Source: Rhodohalobacter sp. 614A
GTDB lineage: Bacteria; Bacteroidota; Rhodothermia; Balneolales; Balneolaceae
NCBI RefSeq assembly: GCF_021462415.1
Contig: NZ_JAKEDS010000001.1
Coordinates: 282,273-346,272, forward strand
DNA: 64,000 nucleotides
Reading direction: 5' to 3'
Shown: piece by piece, positions 36,641 to 64,000 of the stretch
Position numbering within the stretch: position 1 is the stretch's first letter
How the letters are laid out: each line of letters starts with the position of its first letter
Notes under the pieces: model-generated
The model's input: the letters and a program-made list of their open reading frames with translations, nothing else
Database searches by the model: none
What the model was told of the DNA's origin: nothing
Translations under genes and position numbers: made by a program

Positions 36641-37387
36641 ATGAATATTCAATCCTTTACATTTTTTCTTATTCTTTTCCTTGTCTTCTCTTCTCCGCAA
36701 CACGTTCGCTCGCAGTCATTAACCGAAACCAATCTGCTGGTTCAAAAAACCAATGATTTCACGGTTAACGGAACCGGTGACTCCGAAAATTGGTCGGAAA
36801 CCAACTGGGTAGAATTAATCCAGCGGACCAATCACCAAAACGACTCTGACAGAAAAACATCTGTTAAAGTCCTTTACTCAGAAACCGGTATCTACTTTCT
36901 TTTTCGTTGTGATGATGACCTGGTTTCCTCAACCATCACTTCACACTTTGAAGAACTGTGGCGTGAGGATGTAGTGGAAGTTTTCATATGGCCCAATGAG
37001 GGAGAAGAAGTTTATTTTGAATATGAACTATCCCCTCTTAATTATGAATTGCCCATTCTCGTTTCCAGAACCGATTCCGGTCAGTCTCATTGGATTCCAT
37101 TTACATTCAGTTACGACGAGGGTTTTTCCCGAAAGACTGTTCATCAAACATCGGCAACCGGAGGCATTTTGAAAAGCGGAGAGGAAATTTCTGAATGGAG
37201 AGCGGAATTCTTCATTCCATTTGAGCTTTTAATACCGCTCAAAAACAGAATTCCAAAATCAGGTTCAACCTGGAGAGCCAATATTTACCGTGTAGATCAC
37301 GATTATGGAACAACCAACTGGACGTGGCAACCCGTTACAACGAATTTCCATGACCTTTATAGTTACGGAACACTCGTTTTTGAATAA
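36641..37387 (+). CDS. secreted CBM9-like carbohydrate-binding protein
   Basis: This 248-aa protein has a signal peptide (to about residue 25). It then consists of one domain of the carbohydrate-binding family 9-like type: SVKVLYSETGIYFLFRCDDD, WREDVVEVFIWP and EWRAEFFIPFELL are the usual beta-sandwich signatures. It probably binds sugar ends in the periplasm or at the cell surface. It opens the plus-strand arm of the catabolic locus and converges with the DUF1080 gene. Confidence 0.85.
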   Translation: MNIQSFTFFLILFLVFSSPQHVRSQSLTETNLLVQKTNDFTVNGTGDSENWSETNWVELIQRTNHQNDSDRKTSVKVLYSETGIYFLFRCDDDLVSSTITSHFEELWREDVVEVFIWPNEGEEVYFEYELSPLNYELPILVSRTDSGQSHWIPFTFSYDEGFSRKTVHQTSATGGILKSGEEISEWRAEFFIPFELLIPLKNRIPKSGSTWRANIYRVDHDYGTTNWTWQPVTTNFHDLYSYGTLVFE

Positions 37388-37401
37388 TTAAAACCTCAGG
37401 A

Positions 37402-38145
37402 TTAAACCTCTCCAGCAGATTGGCCGGGTTGCAGAATTCCACCCGGCAATTCCATTATATCGATCTTGCGGAAATGAATTTCGGCACCTTCAGCTTCAGG
37501 ACAAATATATCCCTTTTTTCTTTGGGTAGATCTCATACCATTCACAAACTTTCCGTTGACACTTAGCTTGATGGTGCCGTCAATACAGACAACGATATAC
37601 CGGTTCCAGTTTCCAGCCCTTTTTACTCTGTTTTCGAGAGCGTAACTCCTGCCTTTCACCACATCAGACGGATTGTCGGGAATGGTTCCTTTTAAACCCA
37701 TAACAGGAAAAAGATGGCCGTGCGCATATTCAACAGGTCTTTCGTTTATTTCCGGCCATCCGGGATCAAGCATTTGAATCTCGACGCCCGTTGGAAAAGG
37801 CTCATCTTTATAAGGAGTGCCATCAGCCCAGATGAAAAACCCCGAATTTCCACCTTCATCCACAAATTTCCACTCAACGTCCAGAATAAAATTTTCATAC
37901 TGTTTTTCCGTCCTCATTACCCCTATAGGTTTGCCAGTACAAACCAGAGCTCCATCCTTCACTTTCCAGGTATCTTTGGATGTATTAACATCCGTAAAGC
38001 CGGTTAGATCCCGGCCATTAAAAATGGGTTGAAAACCAGGGATTGTTTGATTATCAGCCCCAATCTCACCAGAACCCATGATTCCAAATAAAGACCACAC
38101 TGCCGCGGCTGAAAAGCTACCCTTTAAAAAATCATCTCTATTCAT
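37402..38145 (-). CDS. DUF1080 family protein (3-keto-disaccharide hydrolase domain)
   Basis: This 247-aa protein has a Tat-like N-terminus and a single jelly-roll domain of the DUF1080 type. The opening is PIFNGRDLTGF, followed by WKVKDGALVCTG, NSGFFIWA and a closing EIHFRKIDIMELPG. The domain belongs to a family whose characterised members act on 3-keto-glycosides, splitting the glycosidic bond after C3 oxidation. That role would match the oxidoreductases of this locus. The first residues (MNRDDFLKGSF) look like a weak Tat signal, so export is likely. Confidence 0.85.
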   Translation of the reverse strand: MNRDDFLKGSFSAAAVWSLFGIMGSGEIGADNQTIPGFQPIFNGRDLTGFTDVNTSKDTWKVKDGALVCTGKPIGVMRTEKQYENFILDVEWKFVDEGGNSGFFIWADGTPYKDEPFPTGVEIQMLDPGWPEINERPVEYAHGHLFPVMGLKGTIPDNPSDVVKGRSYALENRVKRAGNWNRYIVVCIDGTIKLSVNGKFVNGMRSTQRKKGYICPEAEGAEIHFRKIDIMELPGGILQPGQSAGEV

Positions 38146-38385
38146 ATCAATCCAAAGATTCTGTGAAGTGTAATTTCAGTGCTATGAATGTCAGCAATCC
38201 TAAACCTGACTAACATAAATCATATGCTGATTTTTCCTTTATCTAAAAGAAAAATACTATATGAAACAAATATTTATAAAAAATAAGGCTACGAAAAATA
38301 TTACCTTTCAAATAAAAGACGTTTACAGTACATTGACAAAAGAAACATTCAAAATGAAAGCATTTTCAAAGCATACTCTTATTCA

Positions 38386-39486
38386 ATGAATCACACCAAA
38401 CTCCTCCTACTTTTCTCCTCCGTTTTACTTCTGATTTTGTCCGCCTGCCAAAATAAATCCGCTGAATCGGATAGCTTTTACAGTATTGAAGATTTTCAAA
38501 GTGTAGAAAAAATTGATGCCCATGTTCATTTGAATATAGCCAACCCCGTGGTTATTGAACAGGGAATTGAGGATAACATGAAATTGATTACCCTGAATGT
38601 TGCCAACGGAAGAACACCGGTGGCGGAGCAGCAACGTGTAGCTCTCGAGCTAAAGAATGATTATCCCGACAGGCTGGCGTACACCTCTGCTTTTTCCCTG
38701 GAGGGTTTTAATGATTCCGAAACCTGGCAGCAGAACACGATGGATTATCTTGAACAATCTTTTGAAAATGGAGCCATTGGCGTAAAAGTCTGGAAAAACA
38801 TCGGTATGGAATTGCAAGATGAAGATGGAAATTTTGTGATGGTCGACGATCCTCAATTTGATCCCATTTTCGAATATCTCTCCCAGAACAACATTCCCCT
38901 TTTCGGTCATATCGGCGAACCCAGAAATTGCTGGCTTCCTCTTGAAGAAATGACTGTAGCAAATGATCGTGATTACTTCGAAAACAATCCGAAATATCAT
39001 ATGTATCAGCATCCGGAATATCCATCTTACGAAGAGATTGTCGCAGCGCGGGATAACATGCTGGATAAGAATCCGGACCTGGCTTTTTTCGGAGCCCATC
39101 TTGGCAGTATGGAATGGAGTATTGAAATGATGAGTGAGCATCTGGATAAATATCCGCATATGATTCTTGGCATGGCTCATCGAATTCCGCACCTGCAATA
39201 CCTCGCTCAAAAAGACCGCGAAGCACTTCGAAACTTTTTTATCAAATACCAAGACCGCTTTTTATACTCAACCGATCTTCACCTTTATGATTCTTCCAAT
39301 CCCGAAGAAGTAAGACAGCTTGCTGCGGATACATGGAAAAAAGACTGGGAGTTTTTTGTAACCGACAATACCCTCGAAGTATGGCAGGTAGAAGGAAGTT
39401 TCCAGGGGCTGAAATTACCAAAAGAAGTGGTTGATAAAATTTATCGCGAAAACGCTCGTGACCGGATTCCCGGCCTCGGTCTTTAA
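38386..39486 (+). CDS. amidohydrolase-2 family lipoprotein (copy A)
   Basis: This 366-aa lipoprotein (lipobox LSAC, Cys 21) has a metal-dependent TIM barrel. The ligand motif DAHVH (His 46, His 48), a His in FGHIGEP, a His in FGAHLGS and the Asp in YSTDLHLY are in the right order for the amidohydrolase-2 superfamily. That group includes sugar lactonases and decarboxylases. It is a clear paralogue of the lipoprotein at 44579-45757, sharing NCWLPLEEMTV and KEVVDKIY segments. It is first in a plus-strand run that continues with a DUF5009 membrane protein 27 bp downstream. Confidence 0.88.
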   Translation: MNHTKLLLLFSSVLLLILSACQNKSAESDSFYSIEDFQSVEKIDAHVHLNIANPVVIEQGIEDNMKLITLNVANGRTPVAEQQRVALELKNDYPDRLAYTSAFSLEGFNDSETWQQNTMDYLEQSFENGAIGVKVWKNIGMELQDEDGNFVMVDDPQFDPIFEYLSQNNIPLFGHIGEPRNCWLPLEEMTVANDRDYFENNPKYHMYQHPEYPSYEEIVAARDNMLDKNPDLAFFGAHLGSMEWSIEMMSEHLDKYPHMILGMAHRIPHLQYLAQKDREALRNFFIKYQDRFLYSTDLHLYDSSNPEEVRQLAADTWKKDWEFFVTDNTLEVWQVEGSFQGLKLPKEVVDKIYRENARDRIPGLGL

Positions 39487-39513: not shown

Positions 39514-40638
39514 ATGGATAAAATTGATAATTCGCTGCTAGATAATTACGGACGCCTTTTATCGCTCGATTTTTACAGAGGGTTCACCATGTTTTTGCTG
39601 ATAGCTGAGGGAGCCGGATTGTGGATAGCTATCAGCAACTCTTATTTTGACGGCAGTATTATAGGAGCTATTTCCACTCAATTTCATCACCATCCCTGGA
39701 ACGGCTTACGTTTTTGGGATCTTGTTCAGCCTTTCTTCATGTTTATTGTTGGGGTGGCCATGCCCATCTCATTGGGCAGACGATGGGCCCGTGGCGATTC
39801 CTGGGAAAGCACTTTCAAACACGTGCTATATCGTGCATTCATGCTTCTCCTCCTCGGATTAACCATCCATTGTGTCTATTCCGGCGAGATTGTTTTTGAA
39901 CTTTGGAATGTCCTTTCGCAACTCTCGTTCACTTATCTTCTAGCCTTTCTCATCATGAGAAAAAGCTGGAAATTTCAGATCAGTTTCTCCGTTGGGCTGT
40001 TATTACTTACGGAGTTTCTCTACCGAATTTGGTGGGTTGAAGGATTTAATCAGCCTTTTACTCCGGACCAAAATTTCGGTACATGGATGGATCTCCTGTT
40101 AATGGGAAAAATTAGTGGTGGACACTGGGTAGTCATTAATGCCCTTCCAACAGCCGCTCACACCATTTGGGGAGTTATTGCTGGTCAGCTTTTGATCAGC
40201 AATCGTGAAACCAGCGAAAAATTTAAAAAATTAATCATCTTTGGTGTTGGTTTAGCCATTCTTGGATACCTGATGGATCCCTTGATTACTCCCATCATTA
40301 AACGGATTGCAACCACTTCGTTTACGATTGTGAGCGGTGGATGGTGTCTTTTGGTATTGGCCGGCTCCTTCTACGTTTTTGATGTAAAAAAATGGCAAAC
40401 AAATTCAGCTCGCTTTTTTGCCATTGTCGGTATGAATCCGCTGTTTATTTACCTGTTCAGTGAGTTTGGTGTAGTGGATTGGCTGTACGACTTTGTTCAA
40501 ATTTTTACGACTGATATTTTGGGAATTGTAGCCATGCCTGAAGCCTGGATTAATGTTTTTACAGCATCCATTGTTCTCGGGTTGATGTGGTATATCACAT
40601 ACTTTCTGTACAAGCGGAAAATTTTTATTTCGATTTAG
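39514..40638 (+). CDS. DUF5009/HGSNAT-like integral membrane acyltransferase-like protein
   Basis: This 374-aa protein has about ten membrane segments and the family opening LLSLDFYRGFTMFLLIAEGAG. The family resembles the membrane N-acetyltransferase of lysosomal heparan breakdown and is often found beside sugar-utilisation genes in Bacteroidota. It could acetylate or transport a sugar derivative across the inner membrane. Lying 27 bp after an amidohydrolase and 29 bp before a PHP metallohydrolase suggests one operon. Confidence 0.82.
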   Translation: MDKIDNSLLDNYGRLLSLDFYRGFTMFLLIAEGAGLWIAISNSYFDGSIIGAISTQFHHHPWNGLRFWDLVQPFFMFIVGVAMPISLGRRWARGDSWESTFKHVLYRAFMLLLLGLTIHCVYSGEIVFELWNVLSQLSFTYLLAFLIMRKSWKFQISFSVGLLLLTEFLYRIWWVEGFNQPFTPDQNFGTWMDLLLMGKISGGHWVVINALPTAAHTIWGVIAGQLLISNRETSEKFKKLIIFGVGLAILGYLMDPLITPIIKRIATTSFTIVSGGWCLLVLAGSFYVFDVKKWQTNSARFFAIVGMNPLFIYLFSEFGVVDWLYDFVQIFTTDILGIVAMPEAWINVFTASIVLGLMWYITYFLYKRKIFISI

Positions 40639-40667: not shown

Positions 40668-42782
40668 ATGGATGAAAATCAGTTTCAATACAAATCATGC
40701 TCTACAATCATTTTCGGTTTTGTAAACCTGTTTTTCTTTTTCCTTGTAGTCCTTTCAATACCACAGCCTCTTTTTGCACAGGGAAATATCTACAAATTAA
40801 CTCCGGAACTTCATCATCTGCGAACAACTGATGCCAGAGAGTGGAGTGATTTTCCACAAGAGAATCTACTGAAAGAATTTAAGACCCGGTTTGAAGCAAA
40901 GGAAAATCAAACTGAATTCACGCTTCGGCTTCGCCAGATAAATGTGAAGCAAAATTGGGAAATCAGCCTGAACGGTGTTCCATTAACGCGTCTTCATCAA
41001 AATGAAGCTGATATCATTGCCTACTTTATCATACCGGCAGGGATTTTAACCTCAGGACAAAATGAGCTGGCTATTCAACAATCCAATCAACTGCCGGATG
41101 ATATTATAGTTGGAGATATACAAATCATCCAACAAACTGTTGAGAACGTGTTAAAAAATGGCGAAGTAATTGTTCGCGTAGTAGATCGTGACACCGGTAG
41201 TCCATTGCCTTCGCGAATTACCGTTGTCAATGAACACCAATCACTCCAAACCATCTGGCCTTCTGCAGACAGCCTGACCACCGTACGCCCCGGCGTTATT
41301 TATACAGGAACGGGATCTGCCAATTTTTTTCTTCCTGAAGGCAAATATACAATCTATGCTGGAAGGGGAATGGAATACAGTGTCGACTCTACAGCGGTTT
41401 CCATCACCGGTTCAGATCAACTTTTTGAGACAGAGCTTTCTATTTATCGTCAGGTTGACACAGAAGGATTTATCAGTAGTGATACACATATTCACACTTT
41501 TACCCACTCGCGGCACGGCGATGCTTCCATTCACGAAAGGATGCTGACAATTGCCGGCGAAGGAATTGAGCTGCCCATTGCAACAGATCATAATCTCCAT
41601 ATAGATTTTAAGCCTGCTGCTGAGAAAATGAAGATTGACAACTACTTTACACCGGTAATTGGAAACGAAGTCACAACCCCTTTGGGGCATTTCAATGTCT
41701 TCCCGGTATTGGAAAAAGCCCCGCCGCCGGAATCCAACATCGAAAATTGGGAGATTTTATTCGATCATATATATGATACTCCCAACGCATCCGTCGTAAT
41801 TTTCAATCACGGACGTGACATTCACGGAGGATTCAGACCTCTCGACAGTGAATTCTTTAATGAAATAACCGGAACATTTCAGAAGGGTTTCAATCCTGAA
41901 TTTAATGCCATGGAAGTTCTCAATTCCGGAGCTCATCAATCGGATATTATGCAGCTTTTCCATGATTGGTTTGCCATGACGAACCGCGGATATACCCTGA
42001 CACCCGTTGCCGGAAGTGACTCTCATGACGTCAATCGTTACATCCTGGGACAAGCAAGAACCTATATCGAATTCCCGGATGATGACGTCTCAAATATGAA
42101 TATTCCGAAAGCATCTGAACGGATTGTACAGGGCAAAGTTGGCATTGGAATGGGACTTTTTACCACCATGACTGTAAATGAAATGTTTACTGCCGGCGAT
42201 CTTGTACCGGTCCGGGATTCCATAGAAGTTTCGATTCGCGTTCAGGGACCCGATTGGATAGATGCCGATGTAATCGAATTATACCAAAATGGCCAGATCG
42301 TCCGATCAGAAAAAATCTCAACAAAATCCCGCGCCGGACTGAAATGGGAAGGAAGCTGGAATCTCCCAAAACTTAATCATGACTCCTTCCTGGTTGCTAT
42401 CGCACGAGGTCCCGGAATCACAAAACCATTCTGGCCCATTGCACGTCCCTGGGAACCTAAATCGATCGAATGGACGCCTGAAGTAATCGGGACAACAGGT
42501 GCAATTTGGCTGGATGAAGATGGAAATGGAAAAAGAACTTCTGCTTTTGAATATGCAACTGAAGTCATGGAATTATCAGAGGGCTTTTTTTCTGAATTAC
42601 TTCAACAGCTCGAAAATTTTGATCAGGCCGTAGCTATTCAGGCTGCCGGTATATTTTTTGAAGAACATTCCAATCAACTTCCACTTTCAGAAGAAATGCA
42701 CCGTTTAATCGAAGCTTCTGCTCCCCAGGTTAGGAAAGGGATGAACATGTACCTGGATTATCAGAAACAGATTGGAGAGTAA
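40668..42782 (+). CDS. CehA/McbA-family PHP-type metallohydrolase
   Basis: The 704-aa exported protein has a signal peptide (to about residue 38), an N-terminal beta domain, and a PHP-like metal centre in residues 270-500. Motif SSDTHIHTFTHSRHGD, ATDHN, NHGRDIHGG and AGSDSHDVN carry the expected His/Asp ligands. CehA and McbA relatives hydrolyse carbamate or phosphoester bonds, but many homologues in this setting have unknown substrates. It ends the plus-strand run and converges with the GMC oxidoreductase. Confidence 0.85.
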   Translation: MDENQFQYKSCSTIIFGFVNLFFFFLVVLSIPQPLFAQGNIYKLTPELHHLRTTDAREWSDFPQENLLKEFKTRFEAKENQTEFTLRLRQINVKQNWEISLNGVPLTRLHQNEADIIAYFIIPAGILTSGQNELAIQQSNQLPDDIIVGDIQIIQQTVENVLKNGEVIVRVVDRDTGSPLPSRITVVNEHQSLQTIWPSADSLTTVRPGVIYTGTGSANFFLPEGKYTIYAGRGMEYSVDSTAVSITGSDQLFETELSIYRQVDTEGFISSDTHIHTFTHSRHGDASIHERMLTIAGEGIELPIATDHNLHIDFKPAAEKMKIDNYFTPVIGNEVTTPLGHFNVFPVLEKAPPPESNIENWEILFDHIYDTPNASVVIFNHGRDIHGGFRPLDSEFFNEITGTFQKGFNPEFNAMEVLNSGAHQSDIMQLFHDWFAMTNRGYTLTPVAGSDSHDVNRYILGQARTYIEFPDDDVSNMNIPKASERIVQGKVGIGMGLFTTMTVNEMFTAGDLVPVRDSIEVSIRVQGPDWIDADVIELYQNGQIVRSEKISTKSRAGLKWEGSWNLPKLNHDSFLVAIARGPGITKPFWPIARPWEPKSIEWTPEVIGTTGAIWLDEDGNGKRTSAFEYATEVMELSEGFFSELLQQLENFDQAVAIQAAGIFFEEHSNQLPLSEEMHRLIEASAPQVRKGMNMYLDYQKQIGE

Positions 42783-42784: not shown

Positions 42785-42803
42785 ACAGCAAACTTTCTGC
42801 TGT
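42785..42803. terminator. hairpin between convergent genes
   Basis: ACAGCA (42785-42790) pairs with TGCTGT (42798-42803) around AACTTTC, at the shared end of two convergent genes and overlapping one stop codon. AT-rich flanks on both sides make it a plausible bidirectional terminator. Confidence 0.45.
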
Positions 42804-44518
42804 TATAAATTCCCTTTGCCCATCTCTTCAACCGCAAAATGAGCAGCACGAGCTGTAATCGCCATAAATGTTAACGATGGGTTTTGAGTAGATGTGGTGG
42901 TCATGCAGGCTCCATCCGTTACAAAAACATTTTTACAGGAATGAATCTGGTTCCACTTATTCAGAACAGACGTTTTAGGATCTTTACCCATCCGCACACC
43001 GCCCATCTCATGAATATCCAGTCCGGGATTCTGGTTGTTGTCTCCGGTTTGAATATTTTTTACACCTACAGCATCCAGAATGTCTACGGCTTTATCCAGG
43101 AAATCATTCATCATTTTTACATCGTTTTCGCCGTAATCGATTGAAATAACGAGTTGAGGAAAGCCCCATTCATCTGTTTCGGTTTCGCTTAAGCGAACGT
43201 GATTTTCATATCGGGGAATAACTTCGCCCGACATTCTTCCGCCAATTCTCCAGCTTCCCGGTTCCATAAGTTCATTTTTCAGATCAACACCAATTTTTGA
43301 AGAACTGAAACCTCGTCTCCATCCCGGGCGGCTGGCATTAATCGAGATATGGTAGCGTCCCTGGAAATCCGCATCACTTTCCTGTTCAAAAACATTTCTG
43401 AATGGTGGAATCAGCGGACCGGTAGGCCTTCTTCCGTAATAATATTTATCATCAAAGCCTTCGATATCGGCACTGATTCTGCCCCGGTAGTTATGAAATC
43501 CGAGGTAGTGTCCCAAGACTCCACTGTCATTACCCAGGCCATTCGGGAATCGGTCGGACGTACTGTTCAGAAGAATCATATTTGAATTGATACAAGCTGC
43601 ATTCACAAAAATAATCCGGGCATAATATTCCGTCATTTCTTTTGTATTTGCATCAACCACGCGAACGCCTATGGCTTTCTCCTTATCTTTATCATAAATA
43701 ATAGAATGGACAACAGAGTGGGTTCGAATCGTCAAATTGCCGGTTTGCATGGCCCAGGGCAGAGTTGTTGAATTGGAACTGAAATAAGCTCCGTACGGAC
43801 AACCGCGCTGGCACATGTTCCTTGCCATACATTGTCCCCGTCCTTGCTGGCGGTGAATATCTTGTACTTGTGTCAGATGAGCACACCGACCCTGGATGTA
43901 ATATCGATCTTTAAAAGAAGATTCTATTTTCTGTTTCATGTGTTCTTCCACACAATTGAACTCAAACGGTGGAAGAAACTCGCCATCGGGAAAATGCTCA
44001 AGGCCATCTTTATTTCCGCTCCATCCGGCAAACTTTTCAACTTTGGAATACCAGGGAGCTAAATCATCATATGTGATAGGCCATTCAATTCCATATCCAT
44101 CCCGGCCGGGGGCTTCAAAATCGTATTTACTCCAACGCTGGCAACCACGTGCCCAAACCAAAGATTTGCCGCCTTCCTGGTAACTTCGGATCCAATCAAA
44201 CGGCTTTTCCTGGATGTAGGGTTGTTCCTCATCTTTTACAAAGAAATGCTCGGTGGTTTTATCGAAAGCATAGCATTTAGCAATGATAGGATTCCTTTCG
44301 AGCATTTCTTGCGGCAACCGGGCGGCATGATCTACCTCCCAGGGATCCTTCATTGCTGTAGGATAATCGCCATGTTTAACGGGTCTTCCCCGTTCCAATA
44401 CCAGCGTTTTAACTCCCTGGTCACAAAGTTCCTTGGCTGCATATCCGCCACTCATTCCTGAACCGATGACAATAGCATCGAACGTTCTTTCCTCTTTGGA
44501 TTGACCGATATACATCAT
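42803..44518 (-). CDS. GMC-family FAD sugar dehydrogenase
   Basis: This 571-aa GMC oxidoreductase starts with the FAD-binding segment AIVIGSGMSGGYAAKEL and ends with HEMGGVRMG...NVFVTDGACMTTTSTQNPSLTFMAITARAA, the GMC C-terminal signature. A Cys-rich stretch CMARNMCQRGC near residue 235 may hold an Fe-S cluster, as in bacterial FAD-glucose dehydrogenases. It oxidises an alcohol or sugar (possibly at C3). No signal peptide or small partner subunit is encoded beside it. It is last of the minus-strand array. Confidence 0.88.
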   Translation of the reverse strand: MMYIGQSKEERTFDAIVIGSGMSGGYAAKELCDQGVKTLVLERGRPVKHGDYPTAMKDPWEVDHAARLPQEMLERNPIIAKCYAFDKTTEHFFVKDEEQPYIQEKPFDWIRSYQEGGKSLVWARGCQRWSKYDFEAPGRDGYGIEWPITYDDLAPWYSKVEKFAGWSGNKDGLEHFPDGEFLPPFEFNCVEEHMKQKIESSFKDRYYIQGRCAHLTQVQDIHRQQGRGQCMARNMCQRGCPYGAYFSSNSTTLPWAMQTGNLTIRTHSVVHSIIYDKDKEKAIGVRVVDANTKEMTEYYARIIFVNAACINSNMILLNSTSDRFPNGLGNDSGVLGHYLGFHNYRGRISADIEGFDDKYYYGRRPTGPLIPPFRNVFEQESDADFQGRYHISINASRPGWRRGFSSSKIGVDLKNELMEPGSWRIGGRMSGEVIPRYENHVRLSETETDEWGFPQLVISIDYGENDVKMMNDFLDKAVDILDAVGVKNIQTGDNNQNPGLDIHEMGGVRMGKDPKTSVLNKWNQIHSCKNVFVTDGACMTTTSTQNPSLTFMAITARAAHFAVEEMGKGNL

Positions 44519-44578
44519 AATTGAAGGTAGACTTAGGCCTGAGAATTATTTTTTAATAGATATAAAATTAACAAATGA

Positions 44579-45757: not shown

Positions 45758-45800
45758 CTTCATCTCCAAAAAACGTTTAGTTGTTGTTATAGCCAGACTT

Positions 45801-46958: not shown

Positions 46959-47007
46959 CCCGGTTGCCTTTATAAGAATAGTTGTTATATGTTTTAAGAT
47001 GTCCAAA

Positions 47008-47036
47008 AGCTGCCATCACACGTCAGGATGGCAGCT
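47008..47036 (-). terminator. strong hairpin between Gfo/Idh/MocA gene and amidohydrolase C
   Basis: A perfect 10-bp stem (AGCTGCCATC, 47008-47017, with GATGGCAGCT, 47027-47036) encloses nine bases and is followed on the minus strand by TTTT. It lies about 90 bp past the upstream stop codon, so it may partly terminate or stabilise transcripts within the array. Confidence 0.5.
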
Positions 47037-47124
47037 AATGAACATTGCGTCTGTGTTACCTATCACTCAATGGTCAACTTCTTCAAAGTCAGATCATCAA
47101 TGATTTCGTCATTGACGCTATTAT

Positions 47125-55874: not shown

Positions 55875-56573
55875 ATTTACACCGTTTAGAGATTAAATAA
55901 GAATTTTAAACAAAAGAAAAGTTATTGTTTCTTTATATAAAGGAATAAAAATCAAAAAAATGAGAAAAGCAAAACATTTATGTTTTTTTTAATTCGTTTT
56001 ATAACTTTTTTAGATGAAAAAAACAGATATAGTAAATTTCTAATGGTTAAAAGGGAATAGAAATGAAATGAGCCGAAAAAACAAAAGAAACCTAACTTCT
56101 TTAAAGGAAAGAAGAAATTATTTAAAAAGTTTAAATTTTTGATCGGTATTATCTGAAATAGAAACGAATAAACTTGGTTTACATTATATTTATAACATAA
56201 AAGAATATGTAAAAAATTTACTTTTCTATCCGTACAACTCACATGAAAGAAATTTTCGCCTTTCGTTTTATAGTTTTTTAAAACGAATCGAAAGATTAAA
56301 ACTATTCTTCCTTCCAAATATTTATTGAGTGAACCTTCCCGGGACATATAATAAGACTATAGTCATTCATAAAACCACCACTCTTTACGTTTTTTTTACA
56401 AAGATGGATTGATTTAGGTGATTTTTTATCCCGTTCTCACTAAATCGATAGATATGCTAAACTTTTCTCCCCGGTCGCCATCCTGCTGTTTTATGAGAAA
56501 CAGCAGGATGACAAGCTTTGTAATTCTCGTTATTTAACGTGAATTGATTACTCTACTAAACTAATGACAAAAT
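55875..56573. other. 699-bp AT-rich intergenic region upstream of susC
   Basis: The region is very AT-rich with no credible gene. The only long open frame is a Phe/Asn/Lys-rich artefact. It contains the susC promoter presumably near 55900-56100 on the minus strand and the end of the GH31 transcript. Notable parts are the imperfect repeat TTCGTTTTATA around 55994 and 56262, the palindrome TTCGTTTT...AAAACGAA (56262-56269/56280-56287), and a strong hairpin at 56479-56510. Confidence 0.6.
56479..56510 (-). terminator. 13-bp perfect hairpin downstream of the GH31 gene
   Basis: CATCCTGCTGTTT (56479-56491) and AAACAGCAGGATG (56498-56510) form a perfect 13-bp stem around TATGAG, 64 bp past the GH31 stop. 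The minus-strand sequence after it is not U-rich, so it may be an RNA-stabilising or processing structure rather than a classic intrinsic terminator. Confidence 0.45.
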
Positions 56574-58160
56574 TTACTGAAGCTCAAAGTGTGGCACACT
56601 CTCTAAAGTCACACGAACTTCAACCACCTGATCCCCTTCATGTACTTTTCCATTGCTGTCTTTCCAGCGTCCGGCCGGAAGAACAACTTTTCGTGTATCG
56701 ATACCTTTCTCCAGTACGGGAGCAACGAGGATGGTGTCTCCAAGGAAAAATTGATCATTTATATTTTCAAATCCCTGATGTGGAAACATATACTCCATCG
56801 ACCGGACGATAGGTTCGCCTGATTTTACCGACTCACGGGCTAACTGAAGAATAACGGGTGCATATTTTTTTCTCAGTTCCACCGCTTTTTCCACCGCTTC
56901 TAAATGCTCGTTATCCAAAATTCTCCACGGAGCAACTGAAAATTGCATCATTGGCATGAGCGCATGAGATTGTGCTGAACGAACAATCAACTCCTGATCA
57001 ATTTCCGCGCCGGGTAAGAATGAGGTAAACTCGCCGCCGCCAATCATATCCGGACAGGTAAAGTTGTATCCAATCAGTCCCTGGAGGAGAATGTCCGGAA
57101 TTAATTTATGCAGATCTTCCCAACTATGAGCTTTATCCCGCAAGCGATTTACCAAGGGTTGTCCTCCCATTTTCCACATCGCACGATATTCATTCAAAGA
57201 ATAATCAAGCCCTATACGTCCATACAGTTCACTTTGTCGCTGGCGGGAAGCCGGACCATCGCTCGTATAGGTGTTGTCATAATGATGAAAATCTCCCGCA
57301 TCAAATTTAAACCCATCTACATTGTAGGTTTCCTGAAGGTAATCCAGTTGTTCCTTGAACCATTCTTCAGTATCCGGATTGGACAGGTCCAGAATACCGC
57401 TTGCCCCATTCCACCATCGGATAACCGCTGCATTTCCTTCGGCGTCTTTCAGCAGCATATCTTTCTCACTCAGCAACCGGAACACATCACTGTCGGGGCT
57501 GACCATAGGCGCCATCCAAAGCATCACTTTGAAACCCATGGCATGAAGAGAGTCTACCATTGCTTTTGGATCCGAAAACCGGCCGGGATGAAAATCCCAC
57601 TTTCCGTAATCTTCCTGCCAGTTGTCATCAATCATCAAAACGCCGGGAGGAAATCCGTTTGATATGATATTCCGTGCATATTCCAGAATATCTTGTTGAT
57701 TCTGATCGTACATCAGCTCAATCCAGGTGTTGTACTGTGGCGCGCTAAACATCAATTCATCCGGCAATTCTCCTGCCGGCGGAAAATAGGTTTTGGAAGC
57801 GTAAAGATATCCTTCTCTCAAAGTAGAACCTGCGTCTGTATGGATCAGTGATGAATTAGGTGAAGAAACGGTTAAAACATTATTAGCCATTTTTACTTCA
57901 AATGGGTCTTCCGACCAGATCACGTCACCTTCGGTTGAAAGAAGAAGCGGCTGAACCTGGTTTCCGTAATTGCTTTCCAAATTGGCATGATATCCGTTTT
58001 TAATTGGGAGCATTTCTCCATGATTCACCACTCCACTCCACCAGGCTTCATTATCTTGAACCGGAATTTCAATGGTTGCTTTTTTTTGTTGGCCAGTGGC
58101 AATTCCTGTCACCAGAAACAGGAAACAGAGTAATTGAGTTATGATGTATTTTTGATTCAT
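56574..58160 (-). CDS. glycoside hydrolase family 31 enzyme
   Basis: This protein of about 528 aa is a secreted alpha-glycosidase of the GH31 clan. The ATG at 58160 gives a Sec signal (MNQKYIITQLLCFLFL). The nucleophile motif GFKFDAGD (near 285) and the acid/base segment CPDMIGGGEF (near 377) are present, and the GVLMIDDNWQ strand precedes them. Alpha-glucosidase, alpha-xylosidase and alpha-galactosidase activities all occur in this family. It is next to two DUF4832 proteins on the same strand. Confidence 0.9.
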   Translation of the reverse strand: MNQKYIITQLLCFLFLVTGIATGQQKKATIEIPVQDNEAWWSGVVNHGEMLPIKNGYHANLESNYGNQVQPLLLSTEGDVIWSEDPFEVKMANNVLTVSSPNSSLIHTDAGSTLREGYLYASKTYFPPAGELPDELMFSAPQYNTWIELMYDQNQQDILEYARNIISNGFPPGVLMIDDNWQEDYGKWDFHPGRFSDPKAMVDSLHAMGFKVMLWMAPMVSPDSDVFRLLSEKDMLLKDAEGNAAVIRWWNGASGILDLSNPDTEEWFKEQLDYLQETYNVDGFKFDAGDFHHYDNTYTSDGPASRQRQSELYGRIGLDYSLNEYRAMWKMGGQPLVNRLRDKAHSWEDLHKLIPDILLQGLIGYNFTCPDMIGGGEFTSFLPGAEIDQELIVRSAQSHALMPMMQFSVAPWRILDNEHLEAVEKAVELRKKYAPVILQLARESVKSGEPIVRSMEYMFPHQGFENINDQFFLGDTILVAPVLEKGIDTRKVVLPAGRWKDSNGKVHEGDQVVEVRVTLESVPHFELQ

Positions 58161-58284
58161 GCGATTGTCTGTACTGCTTTTAATTATTTTCAAACCTTTA
58201 TCTACTAACCTATTCATCATCATTTTAAAGAAGCTTGTGAAATGATATTTGTTTAAGAGTTACATCTTTGTTTTGGGACGTTTT

Positions 58285-59694
58285 TCAAATTTGTATCTCA
58301 CCAAGAATATTTCGTCCCGTTTCGGAATCCCACATATCTTCATTGGCAAGCTGAATAGCAAACTCAGGACGGCCTTGTAGTAATCTGTCTGGCAGGTGCA
58401 GAGAAACCTCATACACGCCGCTTTCCAGTTCTGATTTTTCAACCGGGATTGTAATTTCAAATTCGCCTTCCCAGGTTCGAACATCGCCGGGTACAGAAAC
58501 GATTTGTTCTTCGCCCGTACTTGAATTCTTGAAAATCAAATAAGCTTCGCGTTCCCTGAAAGGCCGAGCATAGCCTTTGTTTTCCATGGTTAATGTTACT
58601 TCTAACATATCTCCGTTTTGTGAGAACGAGGCTTGATTCAGTACAAGCCGGTATCCTAAATTTTTGAGCATTTCATCAAAATAACCGGAATCAATCCAGC
58701 CATTCACAACATCCGGATGGTAATCCCGGTTGATGATGGACCAGTTTGCCAGATCCATCTCTTCCACTGCATTTTCGCCATCCGTCCGGGGAGAATTTAA
58801 TCCGTTCGTTTCACCGGTCATGGGCAGGTATTGAGTTTCATTTTGCAGGAATGAATAGTCATCCGTTCCCACAGGATTTTCATTTTCGCCCGAAACGCGA
58901 TATGTCCCCATATCACCCCAGACATTTAAAAATGCATCATTATAAAAACCAACTCTTGCCTGGGGAGTATCTTTGTACGCCGTGGCATCCGTAAGTTCTG
59001 TTTCTCCATACATGCTAATTTTTGCTTCCGGATATCTCACCTGTATTGGAATGTCCATCGGAGTGGCGTCGTGCATAGCGTATACCACCTCTCTTCGATT
59101 TGCCCATTGCGTTTCGTTGATGCTGCCGTCTGTTCCGAATTCGTCGGAATTTGTATAATACCACTCGCCCCACGTACCAATAAAACCAGCCTGATGAGCT
59201 ACAATCACATCTTTATTTTCTTCCAGCACAGGAGCTAACTGGTTGATATGCTGCAAAATCAATGCTTTGGTTGGCTGCTGAGGCTCGGTGGCTGACTGAC
59301 GATTGGTATAGGAAAACCGCACCAAACATTTAAAACCTGCATTGCGAATCCGGTTAAAATCATTCTGGATATTCTCTAAATAGGCTTGTGAGATTTCTGA
59401 TTCTAAAAAATCTCCCAATAAGAAATATCTGTATAAAACCGTGATTTTTTCCGGCCCTGTTCTCCACTCTGTTAACTCCGCTTCATCAATATTCGAATAA
59501 TCCGCCGTTGAATAATAGGAATCATCGGTAATGGAATATTTTTGCAGGCCCCGTTCAGGGTTTGCAATAATTGCATCGGATTCTGTGTATGTAAAAACCT
59601 GATCCTGAAAGGTATTTTTGCCGGAGTTTTTATTTACATCACAGCCATACATTAATAGTAGTGTAGCTGCCAAAGCTGAAAGTGTTCGTTTCAT
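58285..59694 (-). CDS. DUF4874/DUF4832 lipoprotein, glycosidase-like
   Basis: This protein of about 469 aa starts at ATG 59694 with lipobox LMYGC. The N-terminal DUF4874-like half has ANPERGLQKY, VLYRYFLLGDF and GTWGEWYYTNSDEFG. The C-terminal DUF4832 half is beta-rich. DUF4832 proteins have TIM-barrel glycosidase likeness and occur in polysaccharide loci, but their activities are mostly unproven. An in-frame TTG or ATG further upstream at 59778 would overlap the neighbouring gene and displace the lipobox, so it is rejected. Confidence 0.8.
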   Translation of the reverse strand: MKRTLSALAATLLLMYGCDVNKNSGKNTFQDQVFTYTESDAIIANPERGLQKYSITDDSYYSTADYSNIDEAELTEWRTGPEKITVLYRYFLLGDFLESEISQAYLENIQNDFNRIRNAGFKCLVRFSYTNRQSATEPQQPTKALILQHINQLAPVLEENKDVIVAHQAGFIGTWGEWYYTNSDEFGTDGSINETQWANRREVVYAMHDATPMDIPIQVRYPEAKISMYGETELTDATAYKDTPQARVGFYNDAFLNVWGDMGTYRVSGENENPVGTDDYSFLQNETQYLPMTGETNGLNSPRTDGENAVEEMDLANWSIINRDYHPDVVNGWIDSGYFDEMLKNLGYRLVLNQASFSQNGDMLEVTLTMENKGYARPFREREAYLIFKNSSTGEEQIVSVPGDVRTWEGEFEITIPVEKSELESGVYEVSLHLPDRLLQGRPEFAIQLANEDMWDSETGRNILGEIQI

Positions 59695-59770
59695 ATTTCT
59701 CAAGATGATTGAATTGTGGTTTGTGCTATTTGTTAGCATATGTCTCTTTCTTTCGCCGCCGACCCTAAAT

Positions 59771-61285
59771 TTATCCAAGACCGGGCGTTGGTCGGAGTGT
59801 CAGGCTTCCGTCAGAATTTGTTTCCTGTCGGCAGGCCCATTCCACCGGATATAATTTTCCTTTCACCTTGATTTCTGCAGACAATCGTAATTTTTGCCAG
59901 TCAGCGCCTTTGGGAAGCATCATTCGCACCTGCCGTACGCCGGTGGGTTTCGGATATCCCGGATCCACAAATCCGGAAGAAAGTTCCTCACCACTTTCAT
60001 CTTTCAGGATCAGTTTGATCGATCCCGGAACGCCGGATAATCCGTCATTTACCAGACCAAAAACCAGTCCGTTATGCCCTTCTTTGTTAAAGTGCCAAAT
60101 CCATGACGGGCGAATTCTATACCCGATTTTTCGGGCAATTTCATCGATGCCATTGGGATGTTGTTCATAATACCGCAGAACTTTATCGGCAGCGATGGCC
60201 TGCCAATTCCACAAGGAGTAGTAATTGGGCCCTACATCCATCACATGGTGGATCTCATTTTCTGTGTGCGTTTGTCCATCATAAACCAATGTACCTTCTT
60301 CGGTTCCGTCTGACATTCCCACTTCAATGGAAGCCGCAATATGCGACTCGCGATTACTAAGTGCAGCAATCTGCTGATTTTCAATAAAAATCGTGTCGGT
60401 TCGCAGCCAGTTTCCGGTTCTCAACGTTTCTTCCAGAAGTGCATCATTTCCAACTTTACTAAAATCCGGCTGTGTGTTTGTTGTGAGTGGCACATGGTTC
60501 CAGTGTTCCTGCTGTATTCTGAACATCTCATTAAAAGTTTGTTCAGCTACGACAGAATCGGGAAATGGATTTGTCTCAAACGGCCAGGTATGTCCTTCTC
60601 CCCAAAATCCATACATATAGGTGTCCATATATTCGATAAGCGGATGGCCATTATATTGCTCTGCCAAAAGGCGATCGAAGTCACGAAATGCTTTCTGAAA
60701 TTCGGGATGATCATACCGGGGTTCATAATGAACTTTTCCATCCAGGCCAATTTCGTCTGTTTTTCCCAGCTCAACCATTGGCACTTTTTCTGCCACAAAA
60801 TCGGGCATCGCCAGGCCGGGAATTTCAGGATTGCTGAGCATCACACGGAATGCAATTCGTTTGTTGTATTTTTCTGCCATTTCAAAAGCCAGATTCCAGG
60901 CTTTGGATGAATTTAACTCGCCTGGTTTTTGCTGAAGATCTTTCCAGTTCAGGCGCAGGTACAGTTTTTGTCCCATGGGAATCTGCGCAAGCTTTTCAAT
61001 GGATTTTTCCAGTGATTCACCTTTCACCGACGGTGGTCCTGCTTCATCAATTACATATGTAACCAGTCCCATCCCAAAATTATTAAGGATTCTTTGCGAT
61101 GGAATAGTCGTCATAACCACGCCCCATCCCGGAACTTCATCTACGGGAAAAGGACCTTGGTAAAGTCTGTTTTTTTCGGGGGAAAGAATCTCAGATGACA
61201 AGGGATTTTTACCAATATTATTGACTCCCAGGAATGCCGCGGCTCCTGAAAGGCCCACGGAATGTAAAAACGATTTTCTATTCAT
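59771..61285 (-). CDS. secreted DUF4832-type TIM-barrel protein
   Basis: This 504-aa protein has a Tat-like or Sec N-terminus (MNRKSFLHSVGLSGAAAF) and a TIM-barrel middle part with a GFWGEGHTWPFE loop like the GTWGEW motif of the next gene. A beta-rich C-terminal domain resembles a DUF4832 tail (PSWIWHFNKEGHNGLVFGLVNDG). I read it as a divergent paralogue of 58285-59694 and a probable carbohydrate-active enzyme. Catalytic residues cannot be assigned. Confidence 0.7.
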   Translation of the reverse strand: MNRKSFLHSVGLSGAAAFLGVNNIGKNPLSSEILSPEKNRLYQGPFPVDEVPGWGVVMTTIPSQRILNNFGMGLVTYVIDEAGPPSVKGESLEKSIEKLAQIPMGQKLYLRLNWKDLQQKPGELNSSKAWNLAFEMAEKYNKRIAFRVMLSNPEIPGLAMPDFVAEKVPMVELGKTDEIGLDGKVHYEPRYDHPEFQKAFRDFDRLLAEQYNGHPLIEYMDTYMYGFWGEGHTWPFETNPFPDSVVAEQTFNEMFRIQQEHWNHVPLTTNTQPDFSKVGNDALLEETLRTGNWLRTDTIFIENQQIAALSNRESHIAASIEVGMSDGTEEGTLVYDGQTHTENEIHHVMDVGPNYYSLWNWQAIAADKVLRYYEQHPNGIDEIARKIGYRIRPSWIWHFNKEGHNGLVFGLVNDGLSGVPGSIKLILKDESGEELSSGFVDPGYPKPTGVRQVRMMLPKGADWQKLRLSAEIKVKGKLYPVEWACRQETNSDGSLTLRPTPGLG

Positions 61286-61350: not shown

Positions 61351-62082
61351 TTATTGAACAGGTAATACAATCGTATCCAGGCCCTGCTCTCCGGCAGAAG
61401 AGGTATAACTGGCTGTTAAGACATACGCCCCGCCGGTACTATTCTGATCAGGTTTTTCCATCACTTCAAGCACACCTTCGGCTCCCTGATATACCCAACA
61501 TGTGGTGCAGGAACCCTGCTGAAGGATGTAGTCTACAATCTTCGAAATTTCTTCGTCGTTGTATGTTACTGTCGGCGGCATAACCACCTCTCCCCATTTA
61601 CCAGACGACCCGTCTTTCACACTTTTTACCAGTTGTTCTTGACGATTTGCATCATTTTTATAAGCATCTGCTATCTCTGAAAAGGAAGGGCCAGTCATTT
61701 TATTTTCATCGGAATGACAGCCAAAACAAGTGCTTTTACCAAGCAGCGCCAAACCGCCGGCTGTATACAGATCACTTTTTGCCTGATCTTTCAGAGAAGC
61801 TGAATTTTTATAATCAGACACATAGCGAACATTCAGAAATACTTCTATTGAATTGATTTCTCCGTAGCGCGAACTTCCGTCCGTTTCATCTTCCACATGA
61901 ATGGAATAACGGACCCGCTGTCCCCACGTGAGATTTCCTGAAGCTCCAATTTCTAACTTGACATCCGGTTTTCCGGCTTGAACAATGGTTGTCGTTGGCA
62001 GATCTGCGTTCCCGGAACTTGGATGCAATGCATAGAAGAAGGTAAATCCTGCGATGATACTTAAAGCAACTCGTATACTCAT
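61351..62082 (-). CDS. exported single-heme cytochrome c protein
   Basis: This 243-aa protein has an N-terminal signal/anchor (MSIRVALSIIAGFTFFYAL), a beta-sandwich-like region (about 45-100), then a class I cytochrome c domain with the CFGCH heme site near residue 120 and a likely Met axial ligand in VMPPTVTY near 165. A second pair of Cys (CTTC) near 192 lacks the following His. It begins 12 bp after the FAD oxidoreductase gene and should take electrons from it. Confidence 0.88.
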   Translation of the reverse strand: MSIRVALSIIAGFTFFYALHPSSGNADLPTTTIVQAGKPDVKLEIGASGNLTWGQRVRYSIHVEDETDGSSRYGEINSIEVFLNVRYVSDYKNSASLKDQAKSDLYTAGGLALLGKSTCFGCHSDENKMTGPSFSEIADAYKNDANRQEQLVKSVKDGSSGKWGEVVMPPTVTYNDEEISKIVDYILQQGSCTTCWVYQGAEGVLEVMEKPDQNSTGGAYVLTASYTSSAGEQGLDTIVLPVQ

Positions 62083-62094
62083 AATGCCCGTTCT

Positions 62095-63558
62095 CTAAGC
62101 CTGATCGATTTCGTTCGCTACACGATTTGCCGAGTTGGTTGCAGCTTCCATCCCCCAGCTTCGGTTATCTGCGTATCCGCCGGCAAAATGCATTCTTTTC
62201 TCGGGACGAATCAGGTGAGGCCAATAGCTGTTCAGCGTTCCCATCGGGAAACCTTCTCTTTCACACCCCGGCGTAAATGTGTCGGTAGACCAGTCTTTTA
62301 TCAATACTTGCTCAATATCAATGTTTTTGGCATCACCGGGATAGAGTTCTTTAAATGTAGCCAGTGTTCGCAGCGGATTTACACCGGATGGCGCTTTGGC
62401 CATCAATACAGTTCGTGACGTATCCACCTCTTCCGCTACACGCCAAATGGTTTGCAAAAACGGATGATTAAAGGTGAGATTGATACTCACATCATCTTTC
62501 TTCCAAAATTCGGACCGGGCCTGAAAAACCACGCGGGATTTTTGTTCGTATGATATATTATCGAGGATAAATTTCTTTTCAGCGGGTAAATCCGGTGTGA
62601 TGATGACATTTCGAAGAGCTGTAACCGGTAAACAATTGGCTATGAAATCAGCCGAGATTTTTTTGTCTTCGCCAAACTCACGATAGGTTACGGCTACGCC
62701 GGCAGTGTCATTTTGGATTTCAAGAATATTGCATCCCAGTTTTACTCGTGTGCCTAACCGTTTCGCAAATTCTTTTGGGAGAACTTCATTTCCCTCCTTA
62801 ATCCTGAAAAGATCAATGGGGCCCCAGTAGCCCCTTTTTTTCATGATATATGTTTGCCATAATTTGTTAAGGGCAGACGTACCGCCCCCTCCAAGCAACT
62901 GAAGGGCAGCCTTTGAAGCGCCCTCCTTTTTATAAATATCGGATACAGGAACCGTATCTAACTCATCATAGCCAACACCGAATGGCTGATATTCATCATC
63001 GAACTTTTCGAGGTAAGGTTCCAGGTATAATTTTTCGAGGCTTACATAGGTGCTTACATTCTCGTTTTCAGAAATTGCACGCTTTTCCCTTCGGTTAAGC
63101 CCACCGGATTTTTTGATAGCATCCTGCTGCCTTTGCTGCTGATCACTTTCGCTGAGCCACTCATCATCCACTCTGTTCAGCGTATTTACGCGATGGTAAT
63201 AGGGAATCACAGGAATATCGAACTCATCGATATATTTCCAGTAATTTTCATACCCCGGCTTTGTGAAATTTTCGGCGCCGTAGTCGGCATACAGGCCGTC
63301 AGCCAGTCCATCATGCACAGATAAAACGGTTCCCCCGTAACGGCCGGCGGCTTCAAGTACCACAACTTCGTGGCCCATTTTCATCAGTTCATAAGCACAG
63401 CATAAACCGGCAATACCCGCGCCTGCCACAATCACTTTTTTCTTTACGCGCGGGTTTGCAACCGGACGTTCAGCCCGGTTTTGTTTGGAGTAAAAAGGCA
63501 TGGCGGAAAAACCCAACCCTACTAATGAACTTTTTTTCAAAAAACTCTTTCTGTCCAT
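62095..63558 (-). CDS. Tat-like FAD-dependent amine-oxidase-family oxidoreductase
   Basis: This 487-aa flavoprotein has a Tat-like signal (MDRKSFLKKSSLVG), the dinucleotide motif VIVAGAGIAGLCCAYELMKMGHEVVVLEAAGR starting near residue 39, and the C-terminal RMHFAGGYADNRSWGMEAATNSA FAD-binding end. The family covers amine oxidases, phytoene-type and protoporphyrinogen oxidases. The cytochrome c gene 12 bp downstream suggests a periplasmic dehydrogenase using cytochrome as acceptor. Confidence 0.88.
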   Translation of the reverse strand: MDRKSFLKKSSLVGLGFSAMPFYSKQNRAERPVANPRVKKKVIVAGAGIAGLCCAYELMKMGHEVVVLEAAGRYGGTVLSVHDGLADGLYADYGAENFTKPGYENYWKYIDEFDIPVIPYYHRVNTLNRVDDEWLSESDQQQRQQDAIKKSGGLNRREKRAISENENVSTYVSLEKLYLEPYLEKFDDEYQPFGVGYDELDTVPVSDIYKKEGASKAALQLLGGGGTSALNKLWQTYIMKKRGYWGPIDLFRIKEGNEVLPKEFAKRLGTRVKLGCNILEIQNDTAGVAVTYREFGEDKKISADFIANCLPVTALRNVIITPDLPAEKKFILDNISYEQKSRVVFQARSEFWKKDDVSINLTFNHPFLQTIWRVAEEVDTSRTVLMAKAPSGVNPLRTLATFKELYPGDAKNIDIEQVLIKDWSTDTFTPGCEREGFPMGTLNSYWPHLIRPEKRMHFAGGYADNRSWGMEAATNSANRVANEIDQA

Positions 63559-63595
63559 GGTTATTTCGGCTTAAAAAATTTGGATTAGCACTGAT

Positions 63596-64000
63596 TTATT
63601 CCGGGCTTGCCATAACCATTACATGATGCGTAAAGCTGGTTTCCAGTTTCGCTTCAGGACCCGTTGCGGTTCCAAGATCTTCACCGGTTTCATAATTCAT
63701 CAGATGATATTCTTTGCCGGATTCCAAGCCGCGAAGTTCCACTTCGCCATCAAAAGAATCGGAATAGAAAGCGTAGAACAGTTTACCATCTTTTTCTACC
63801 GCATGGGCTTCGGGAGAGTAGAAACCAATATCGTACAGTTCACCACGATAGTTTCCTTTTGGCAGCATATATTTTTTGTAGATATCCATCCATTTGGCTA
63901 CCAACTCTTCTCTTTCTTCTGTAAGCACATATTTTCCTTCGGGATCAGCATCGGCTGGCCATGTAAATTTGGTTCCAATCACGCCGCCAATTCCCACGGT
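63596..64000 (-). CDS. C-terminal part of a glycosidase-like protein (partial at window end)
   Basis: Translation enters from beyond 64000 and ends with FTHHVMVMASPE at the stop at 63596, so only about 134 C-terminal residues are seen. They hold the end of a (beta/alpha)8 region (GGVIGTKFTWPADADP, WMDIYKKYMLPKGNY) and a beta-sandwich (LFYAFYSDSFDGEVELRGLESGKEYHLMNYETG) like that of alpha-galactosidase-type proteins. The family assignment is tentative. Confidence 0.6.
   Translation of the reverse strand, partial: TVGIGGVIGTKFTWPADADPEGKYVLTEEREELVAKWMDIYKKYMLPKGNYRGELYDIGFYSPEAHAVEKDGKLFYAFYSDSFDGEVELRGLESGKEYHLMNYETGEDLGTATGPEAKLETSFTHHVMVMASPE

Follow-up and report, generated by a model that had tools for sequence, protein, structure and literature searches.

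The window analysed here is a stretch of 64,000 nucleotides of Rhodohalobacter sp. 614A (C1:282273-346272 of a 4.69-Mb genome, 99% complete), which holds about half of a gene cluster of about 50 kb. This locus is probably (we estimate roughly 70%) a modular, AgaR-linked system of Balneolaceae for the uptake and use of glycans with alpha-linked galactosamine (GalN) or N-acetylgalactosamine (GalNAc) via the tagatose-bisphosphate route. We infer the substrate from the linked AgaR, AgaS, and KbaY genes. A preliminary description of the DNA had left the substrate open and had given the locus as positions 36641-64000; position 64000 is the edge of the window, which cuts the locus, and the right end is reached at approximately C1:369046, 23 kb past it. 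Within these 23 kb, a second SusCD operon, two further GH109-type Gfo enzymes, a cytoplasmic aga operon, and an AgaR-type regulator are encoded. Families were assigned from open reading frames by Pfam and NCBIfam profile searches, solved relatives by sequence comparison, and export signals by simple heuristics. Positions without a prefix refer to the window; other genomes are given by G numbers and stretches of them by L numbers. In the public set, the genomes most closely related to it belong to the Balneolaceae (Rhodohalobacter sulfatireducens, Balneolaceae metagenome-assembled genomes (MAGs), and Fodinibius roseus).

Six of the eight Amidohydro_2 genes of the genome lie inside 44 kb (scan bound approximately 1e-8), and the gene set, sought in related genomes, recurs there with rearranged orders; the grouping is therefore more than chance. 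The earlier view of an exported glycan uptake and cleavage locus with redox-type enzymes holds.

Genes of a probable tagatose-bisphosphate route

The aga operon on the plus strand encodes AgaS (C1:358581-359726; AgaS family, 1e-101), a GatZ/KbaZ-like protein (GatZ/AgaZ; C1:359758-360975, 1e-25), a PfkB kinase (C1:360997-361956), a KbaY-like class II aldolase (C1:361953-362783), an EamA permease (C1:362837-363763), the cytosolic amidohydrolase AmiF (PF04909; C1:363765-364787), and an SSS symporter (C1:364810-366633). It is followed on the minus strand by a sulfatase (C1:366640-368262), which hints that the glycan may be sulfated, and by AgaR (C1:368282-369046), which scores 322.5 bits with NF040755 and passes the curated equivalog cut-off of 260. 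AgaR, AgaS, the tagatose-6-phosphate (Tag-6-P) kinase slot, and KbaY constitute the lower pathway of GalNAc and GalN degradation (PMC3668189, PMC4694137, PMC12118421). The agaS gene of Escherichia coli encodes a GalN-6-phosphate (GalN-6-P) deaminase/isomerase (PMC3668189); AgaZ and LacC as Tag-6-P kinases and the order of the pathway have been described (PMC12118421, PMC4694137). The position of GatZ is held by a LacC/1-phosphofructokinase (1-PFK)-like kinase in G005, G011, G014, G020, G074, G085, G045, G066, G071, and G360, and this exchange would agree with AgaZ acting, as has been proposed, as a Tag-6-P kinase.

According to the proposed pathway, the SusC/SusD pairs, together with the CBM9-like protein, would import oligosaccharides, from which the GH109-type Gfo proteins, the GH36 enzyme, and the GH31 alpha-galactosidase would release galactose (Gal), GalNAc, or GalN in the periplasm. 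The GH109 enzymes would oxidise C3 only transiently with bound nicotinamide adenine dinucleotide (NAD), with no net oxidation. The SSS and EamA permeases would bring the amino sugar into the cell, where the PfkB kinase would phosphorylate it and the cytosolic AmiF would take off the acetyl group, in the slot expected for NagA/AgaA. AgaS would deaminate and isomerise GalN-6-P to Tag-6-P, GatZ/AgaZ (in sister loci the LacC-like kinase) would form tagatose-1,6-bisphosphate, and KbaY would split it.

Two observations concern aga operons of other genomes. The kinase at the GatZ position in G005 (L042:11264, minus strand) opens with approximately 25 GatZ-like N-terminal residues and continues LacC/1-PFK-like, which looks like an in-place replacement of gatZ. 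The aga operon of a Balneolaceae MAG contains an extra gene similar to maltose/galactoside O-acetyltransferases (L007:3640-4230).

Gfo/Idh/MocA proteins and the question of net oxidation

In the preliminary description, an oxidation-then-cleavage route outside the cytoplasm, with 3-keto-glycosides as substrates of DUF1080, was offered as a hypothesis. The two Gfo/Idh/MocA proteins that it listed in the window were found again: GfoA (47125..48474, minus strand, Tat-like start) and GfoB (49684..51027, minus strand, 71% identical to GfoA). GfoC (C1:355181-356584) and GfoD (C1:356706-358043) are encoded on the minus strand past the window edge. The C-terminal domain of GH109 (PF21252) is present on all four proteins (4e-51 in GfoA). 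The best solved relatives of GfoB are the GH109 alpha-N-acetylgalactosaminidases (alpha-GalNAcases) 2ixa (5e-66, 226 bits) and 6t2b (3e-62, 214 bits); the next one reaches only 4e-10 (42 bits), and dehydrogenases thus score far lower. The active-site residues compared are those of the GH109 literature. Among them, Y179, H181, R213, Y225, and H228 (2ixa numbering) are kept by each of the four Gfo proteins. In GfoC, E149 and Y307 are present too, so that the set is complete, and the GHGG loop is found as well; GfoD, which shares 48% identity with the solved 2ixa, has the GHGG loop and a set complete except for E149 and Y307. GH109 catalysis proceeds by a transient oxidation at C3 and re-reduction in one cycle with bound NAD, whereby NAD+ is regenerated, so that no external electron acceptor is needed and nothing is oxidised overall. 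The comparison of domains and residues shows an oxidoreductase appearance of the locus that stems mainly from predicted GH109-type glycosidases.

If the locus were net-oxidative instead, the GMC dehydrogenase and the Gfo proteins would oxidise the glycan at C3 in the periplasm, the electrons would pass to cytochrome c, and DUF1080 and the amidohydrolases would cleave the 3-keto products. We regard this as very unlikely, although parts of it find some support. The flavin adenine dinucleotide (FAD)-dependent GMC dehydrogenase (42803..44518, minus strand, PF05199/PF00732) is of the catalytic-subunit type, and its nearest solved relative is the large subunit of fructose dehydrogenase (3e-32), which places it in the fructose/glucose dehydrogenase class. 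However, while two paralogous GMC genes of this genome have a Gluconate_2-dh3 small subunit encoded beside them, none is found near the GMC gene of the locus: the matches in the genome are at C4:37986, C2:888510, and C1:2011027 only, none of them in the locus. The Gfo proteins, GH109-like as they are, reach 20-29 bits with the models of the glycoside 3-dehydrogenases BT_2158/BT_2159, far below the cut-offs of 750/650. The DUF1080 protein (3keto-disac_hyd, PF06439 4e-35; 37402..38145, minus strand) resembles enzymes that cleave 3-keto-disaccharides, and LacABC and DUF1080 cooperate in Caulobacter (PMC9007349). It is one of 15 DUF1080 domain matches in the genome, and the sister loci of G005, G008, G015, and G019 lack it; one 64% relative is found elsewhere, approximately 7 kb from AgaS in G085 and hence near an aga operon. 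Although Gfo, AmiD, and GMC are retained in sister loci, DUF1080, cytochrome c, and the flavin oxidase are missing there; DUF1080 is thus accessory and outside the conserved set. As a common theme of the locus, net oxidation via 3-keto-glycosides is poorly supported.

Amidohydrolases and a candidate deacetylase

All four amidohydrolases reported before in the window are confirmed as Amidohydro_2 (PF04909). AmiA (38386..39486, plus strand, 1.9e-11, LSAC lipobox), AmiB (44579..45769, minus strand, 2.4e-11), and AmiC (45801..47006, minus strand, 5.6e-28) are of the exported lipoprotein type, and AmiD (48512..49657, minus strand, 2.3e-27), located between the two Gfo genes, is of the twin-arginine translocation (Tat) type. 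AmiE (C1:347963-349060, minus strand) and AmiF follow outside the window. In a tree, the six proteins form two deep groups, AmiA/B/F and AmiC/D/E, and AmiA is 40% identical to AmiF. The AmiF orthologues in aga clusters begin directly at the first barrel strand, without a signal where checked, which indicates that AmiF is cytosolic.

AmiF is present in the aga cluster of 16 examined genomes (G000, G004, G008, G011, G014, G015, G019, G020, G045, G060, G066, G071, G074, G081, G085, and G360). In 12 of these (G000, G008, G011, G014, G020, G045, G060, G066, G071, G074, G081, and G360), no match to the NagA family was found at an E-value of 1e-30. In the genome of the window, no match to TIGR00221, the NagA/AgaA-type GalNAc-6-phosphate deacetylase model, exceeds the cut-off (best 30 bits). 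G005 is the one sister locus without a cytosolic AmiF; its sole match is the exported AmiA, and a NagA-like gene adjoins agaR. Since AmiF occurs in aga clusters mostly without NagA and is exchanged for a NagA-like gene in G005, its simplest reading is that of a deacetylase. This linkage makes AmiF a candidate non-orthologous deacetylase for GalNAc or GalNAc-6-phosphate in the NagA/AgaA slot, with AmiA and AmiB as exported relatives. A wider proposal, which we put forward tentatively and at less than even odds, is that AmiA/B/F-type PF04909 proteins constitute a new class of GalNAc(-6-phosphate) deacetylases that replaces NagA/AgaA in Balneolaceae and relatives, the exported AmiA and AmiB stripping the acetyl group before a GH36 galactosaminidase acts. 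No paper on amidohydrolase-type GalNAc deacetylases was found in the literature searched, which does not prove absence.

Structure comparison gave matches at the superfamily level. The AlphaFold2 model of AmiD (pLDDT 79) has an amidohydrolase-2/decarboxylase-like fold, and Foldseek searches with the models of AmiD and of an AmiF orthologue returned superfamily-level matches only (decarboxylases, dihydroorotase, hydratases; template modelling score approximately 0.5). When PDB sequences were searched with profiles of the amidohydrolases, only weak matches came up.

Lactonases are also among the PF04909 proteins. On this basis, the GMC dehydrogenase might oxidise C1 of the freed amino sugar to a lactone, which the Amidohydro_2 proteins would open to amino-sugar aldonates. 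One operon holds GMC, AmiB/AmiC, and AmiD, and GMC and AmiD occur in the same nine genomes, as such a route would suggest. It is nevertheless unlikely: the other enzymes of the AmiF operon need an unoxidised amino-sugar phosphate, this operon is also found in genomes without the close GMC type (G011, G014, G020, G066, G071, and G074), and no gene for aldonate catabolism could be recognised in the stretch.

Directly beside agaR of G005 (L042:4189-7240), genes similar to nagA, nagB, and N-acylglucosamine 2-epimerase genes were noticed. The AmiD frame of the same genome (G005:C9:178202-179206), otherwise 79% identical, is broken by one TGA. By eye, an N-terminus resembling PIG-L-type deacetylases, another possible deacetylase, was seen near the aga operon of G085 (L051:3-560).

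Uptake system, glycosidases, and linkage across genomes

Operon 1 (42803-55874) begins with the TonB-dependent transporter SusC1 (52941..55874, minus strand, TIGR04056 772 bits), followed by the lipoprotein SusD1 (51337..52905, minus strand, PF07980 and PF14322); as adjacent genes, they form a SusC/SusD uptake system of the kind found in a polysaccharide utilisation locus (PUL). The second pair, SusC2 (C1:350789-353833) and SusD2 (C1:349283-350752), and an unassigned protein (C1:354176-355039) are encoded on the minus strand between AmiE and GfoC. The GH36-type enzyme, whose 3' part lies in the window (63596..64000, minus strand, Melibiase 1.8e-12), is encoded by C1:345868-347949 (693 amino acids); its nearest solved relatives are 8x1b (1e-54) and the A-type alpha-galactosaminidase 9awt (3.5e-53), and a 74% relative is found in the G015 locus. 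The GH31 protein (56574..58223, minus strand) matches the GH31 alpha-galactosidase 8j50 (1.4e-183) with the FKFDAGD motif aligned, and MYORG (3e-65). The GH109-type proteins, the distant relative of an A-type galactosaminidase, and the GH31 alpha-galactosidase would fit a glycan with alpha-linked Gal, GalNAc, or GalN.

AmiD relatives were found in nine of 44 genomes, and the locus-type GMC (at least 77% identical) in exactly those nine; relatives of AmiD were seen in 10 loci besides the one described here. AgaS (at least 62%) is present in seven of the nine AmiD genomes and in none of the 35 others. Fisher tests gave 1e-9 for AmiD and GMC and 1e-6 for AgaS, values that are overstated, as the genomes are related. 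A single contig carries both AgaS and AmiD in G000, G005, G008, G015, and G019 with differing gene orders, at distances of approximately 2 kb in G019 (L007), approximately 5 kb in G005, and 22-27 kb in G015, G008, and the genome of the window. The aga operons of other genera have relatives of SusC1 and SusD1 at their flanks, often with GH109-like Gfo genes (G014, G045, G066, G071, and G360); in these five genomes, the SusD1 relatives (40-48%) adjoin the aga operon and the SusC1 relatives (36-46%) are divergent from agaS. GMC, AmiD, and GfoA/GfoB represent an accessory module, marked by AmiD.

The sister loci of G005, G008, G015, and G019 do not have DUF1080, GH31, DUF4832, the 59771 protein, cytochrome c, or the flavin oxidase. 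The last five of these could form an insert for another substrate, for example an alpha-galactoside, so that two systems would have merged here: one that is aga-linked, made up of operon 1 and the genes on the right, and an unrelated one. None of the five insert genes occurs in the loci of these four genomes, a flavin oxidase-cytochrome pair stands alone beside housekeeping genes in G020, and GH31 matches an alpha-galactosidase rather than an alpha-GalNAcase. On the other hand, the insert genes and the GH36 gene, for which an aga link is seen in G015, are transcribed from the same strand behind SusC2/SusD2, and aga-linked genes are located on both sides of the insert. A merger of two systems is accordingly a real possibility, yet one that we rate somewhat below an even chance, and a single modular GalN/GalNAc locus remains the preferred interpretation.

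The genes of the possible insert besides GH31 encode a lipoprotein-like DUF4832/DUF4874 protein (58285..59778, minus strand, 1.3e-49 and 1.1e-41), an exported protein of no known family (59771..61285, minus strand, no Pfam or NCBIfam match), an exported c-type cytochrome (61351..62082, minus strand, PF13442 and PF00034), and a flavin amine-oxidase-family FAD enzyme with a Tat-like start (62095..63558, minus strand, PF01593 3e-35). The 59771 protein had been considered a second DUF4832 protein; this was rejected, since it has no Pfam match even at an E-value of 0.05 and BLASTP shows no similarity to the adjacent DUF4832 protein. The solved relatives of the flavin oxidase are L-amino-acid-oxidase-like, and it was found in only two of the 43 other genomes, in an unrelated context. 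In G020 (L045:9438-11700), a flavin amine-oxidase and a cytochrome c form a unit beside housekeeping genes (ybeY and a topoisomerase-like gene), away from PULs. Traced to these two genomes, the pair was set aside as having no relation to the conserved set.

In G015 (L034-L035, approximately 15-27 kb into the stretch), the interval between AgaS and SusC1 contains, by eye, look-alikes of a NagB-type deaminase, a fucose-type isomerase, and an FGGY kinase, and, by similarity, a KbaY-like aldolase.

Further genes and regulatory sequences of the window

At the left end, a CBM9-like exported protein, possibly a surface glycan-binding one (36641..37387, plus strand, CBM9_1 2.3e-10), has 73% relatives that adjoin AmiA in G005 and G015. 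The same holds for the membrane protein encoded by 39514..40638 (plus strand; 81% relatives), which had been called DUF5009; it has no Pfam match at all and is a NagX relative instead (NF046061, 4e-40), a candidate transmembrane amino-sugar N-acetyltransferase, with 138 bits below the curated equivalog cut-off of 480. An exported CehA/McbA-type (PHP-like) metallohydrolase (40668..42782, plus strand, NF038032 104 bits, cut-off 80) has relatives in the loci of G008 and G015. Nearly all families named before were recovered by Pfam and NCBIfam, with one DUF4832 protein by sequence rather than two; the protein listed as an FAD dehydrogenase belongs to the flavin amine-oxidase enzymes. The heuristics point to RR/RK Tat-like starts on AmiD, the Gfo proteins, the 59771 protein, and the flavin oxidase and to lipoprotein-like starts on AmiA to AmiC; of the products, described before as nearly all exported, GMC has no N-terminal signal peptide.

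Upstream of SusC1, an AT-rich intergenic region (55952..56573) occupies a gap of approximately 700 bp. An open reading frame of 131 amino acids in it (55952-56347), without a family match, is probably spurious. A consensus scan placed an AgaR-like box at approximately 56049, which is not significant over the whole stretch. An Rfam scan of the window yielded a transfer RNA as the sole match.

Several findings weigh against the interpretation given here. AgaS (340 bits, cut-off 529) and GatZ (91 bits, cut-off 569) are recognised, yet fall below the curated cut-offs, and the relationship between the GH36 protein and the A-type alpha-galactosaminidase is distant. Inside the window, GfoA and GfoB retain the loop histidine (GHGQ in GfoA, GHGG in GfoB) and lack E149 and Y307, so that their sugar may differ. 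The AgaR consensus is not above the Markov expectation in the 98-kb stretch, and the 8-bp core TTTCRTTT is only mildly enriched in the intergenic DNA of six related loci (27 versus approximately 14.7 expected); co-regulation by AgaR is therefore not claimed. Concerning AmiF, G004, G015, G019, and G085 have NagA as well, and in the fragmented MAGs G007 and G017, which have AgaS, neither AmiF nor NagA was found. Foldseek places the modelled AmiF about equally near decarboxylases and dihydroorotases, so amide hydrolysis by AmiF is a putative reaction.

Relation to known systems

The PUL BT4240-50 of Bacteroides thetaiotaomicron for mucin O-glycans and GalNAc (PMC11992087) likewise combines SusCD, a GH109 alpha-GalNAcase, and cytoplasmic GalNAc handling in one locus. 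In contrast to it, GH2, an M60 peptidase, and a BT4240-type kinase were not recognised here, and instead the locus has a predicted aga/tagatose operon that is complete, together with GMC, six amidohydrolases, and four GH109-like enzymes. With the proteobacterial and streptococcal aga regulon (PMC3668189, PMC4694137, PMC12118421), it shares the gene for an AgaR-family repressor and, by prediction, AgaS, the Tag-6-P kinase slot, and a class II aldolase. It differs in that the cluster has no phosphotransferase system and instead SSS and EamA permeases and a PfkB kinase, that the PF04909 protein AmiF fills the deacetylase slot of NagA/AgaA, and that these genes are coupled to SusCD and GH109-type genes. 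GMC, Gfo proteins, cytochrome c, and DUF1080 are also found in the LacABC/DUF1080 3-keto-glycoside pathway (PMC9007349) and in BT2156-2160; here, however, GMC lacks the small subunit, the Gfo proteins group with GH109, and DUF1080 and the cytochrome are not conserved. The A-antigen pathway of Flavonifractor plautii (GalNAc deacetylase and GH36 galactosaminidase, 9awt) resembles the locus in the idea of deacetylation before cleavage and in a distant GH36 relative, whereas the only deacetylase candidates here are amidohydrolase-2 proteins. The Flavonifractor deacetylase belongs to a different protein family. PULs joining Gfo/Idh/MocA with amidohydrolases were not found in the literature searched; the combination may thus be undescribed, as supposed before, without its absence being proven.

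The description that suits the locus best is that of a variant among the loci for GalNAc/GalN utilisation, one that has a candidate non-orthologous deacetylase and the accessory GMC-AmiD-GfoA/B module. A gene list lacking a substrate is thereby turned into a testable galactosamine/GalNAc hypothesis, and AmiF becomes a named candidate for the missing deacetylation step in bacteria that lack NagA but otherwise possess the pathway. If this proves true, an uncharacterised branch of PF04909 would gain a function, and another route for the de-N-acetylation of GalNAc glycans would be added.

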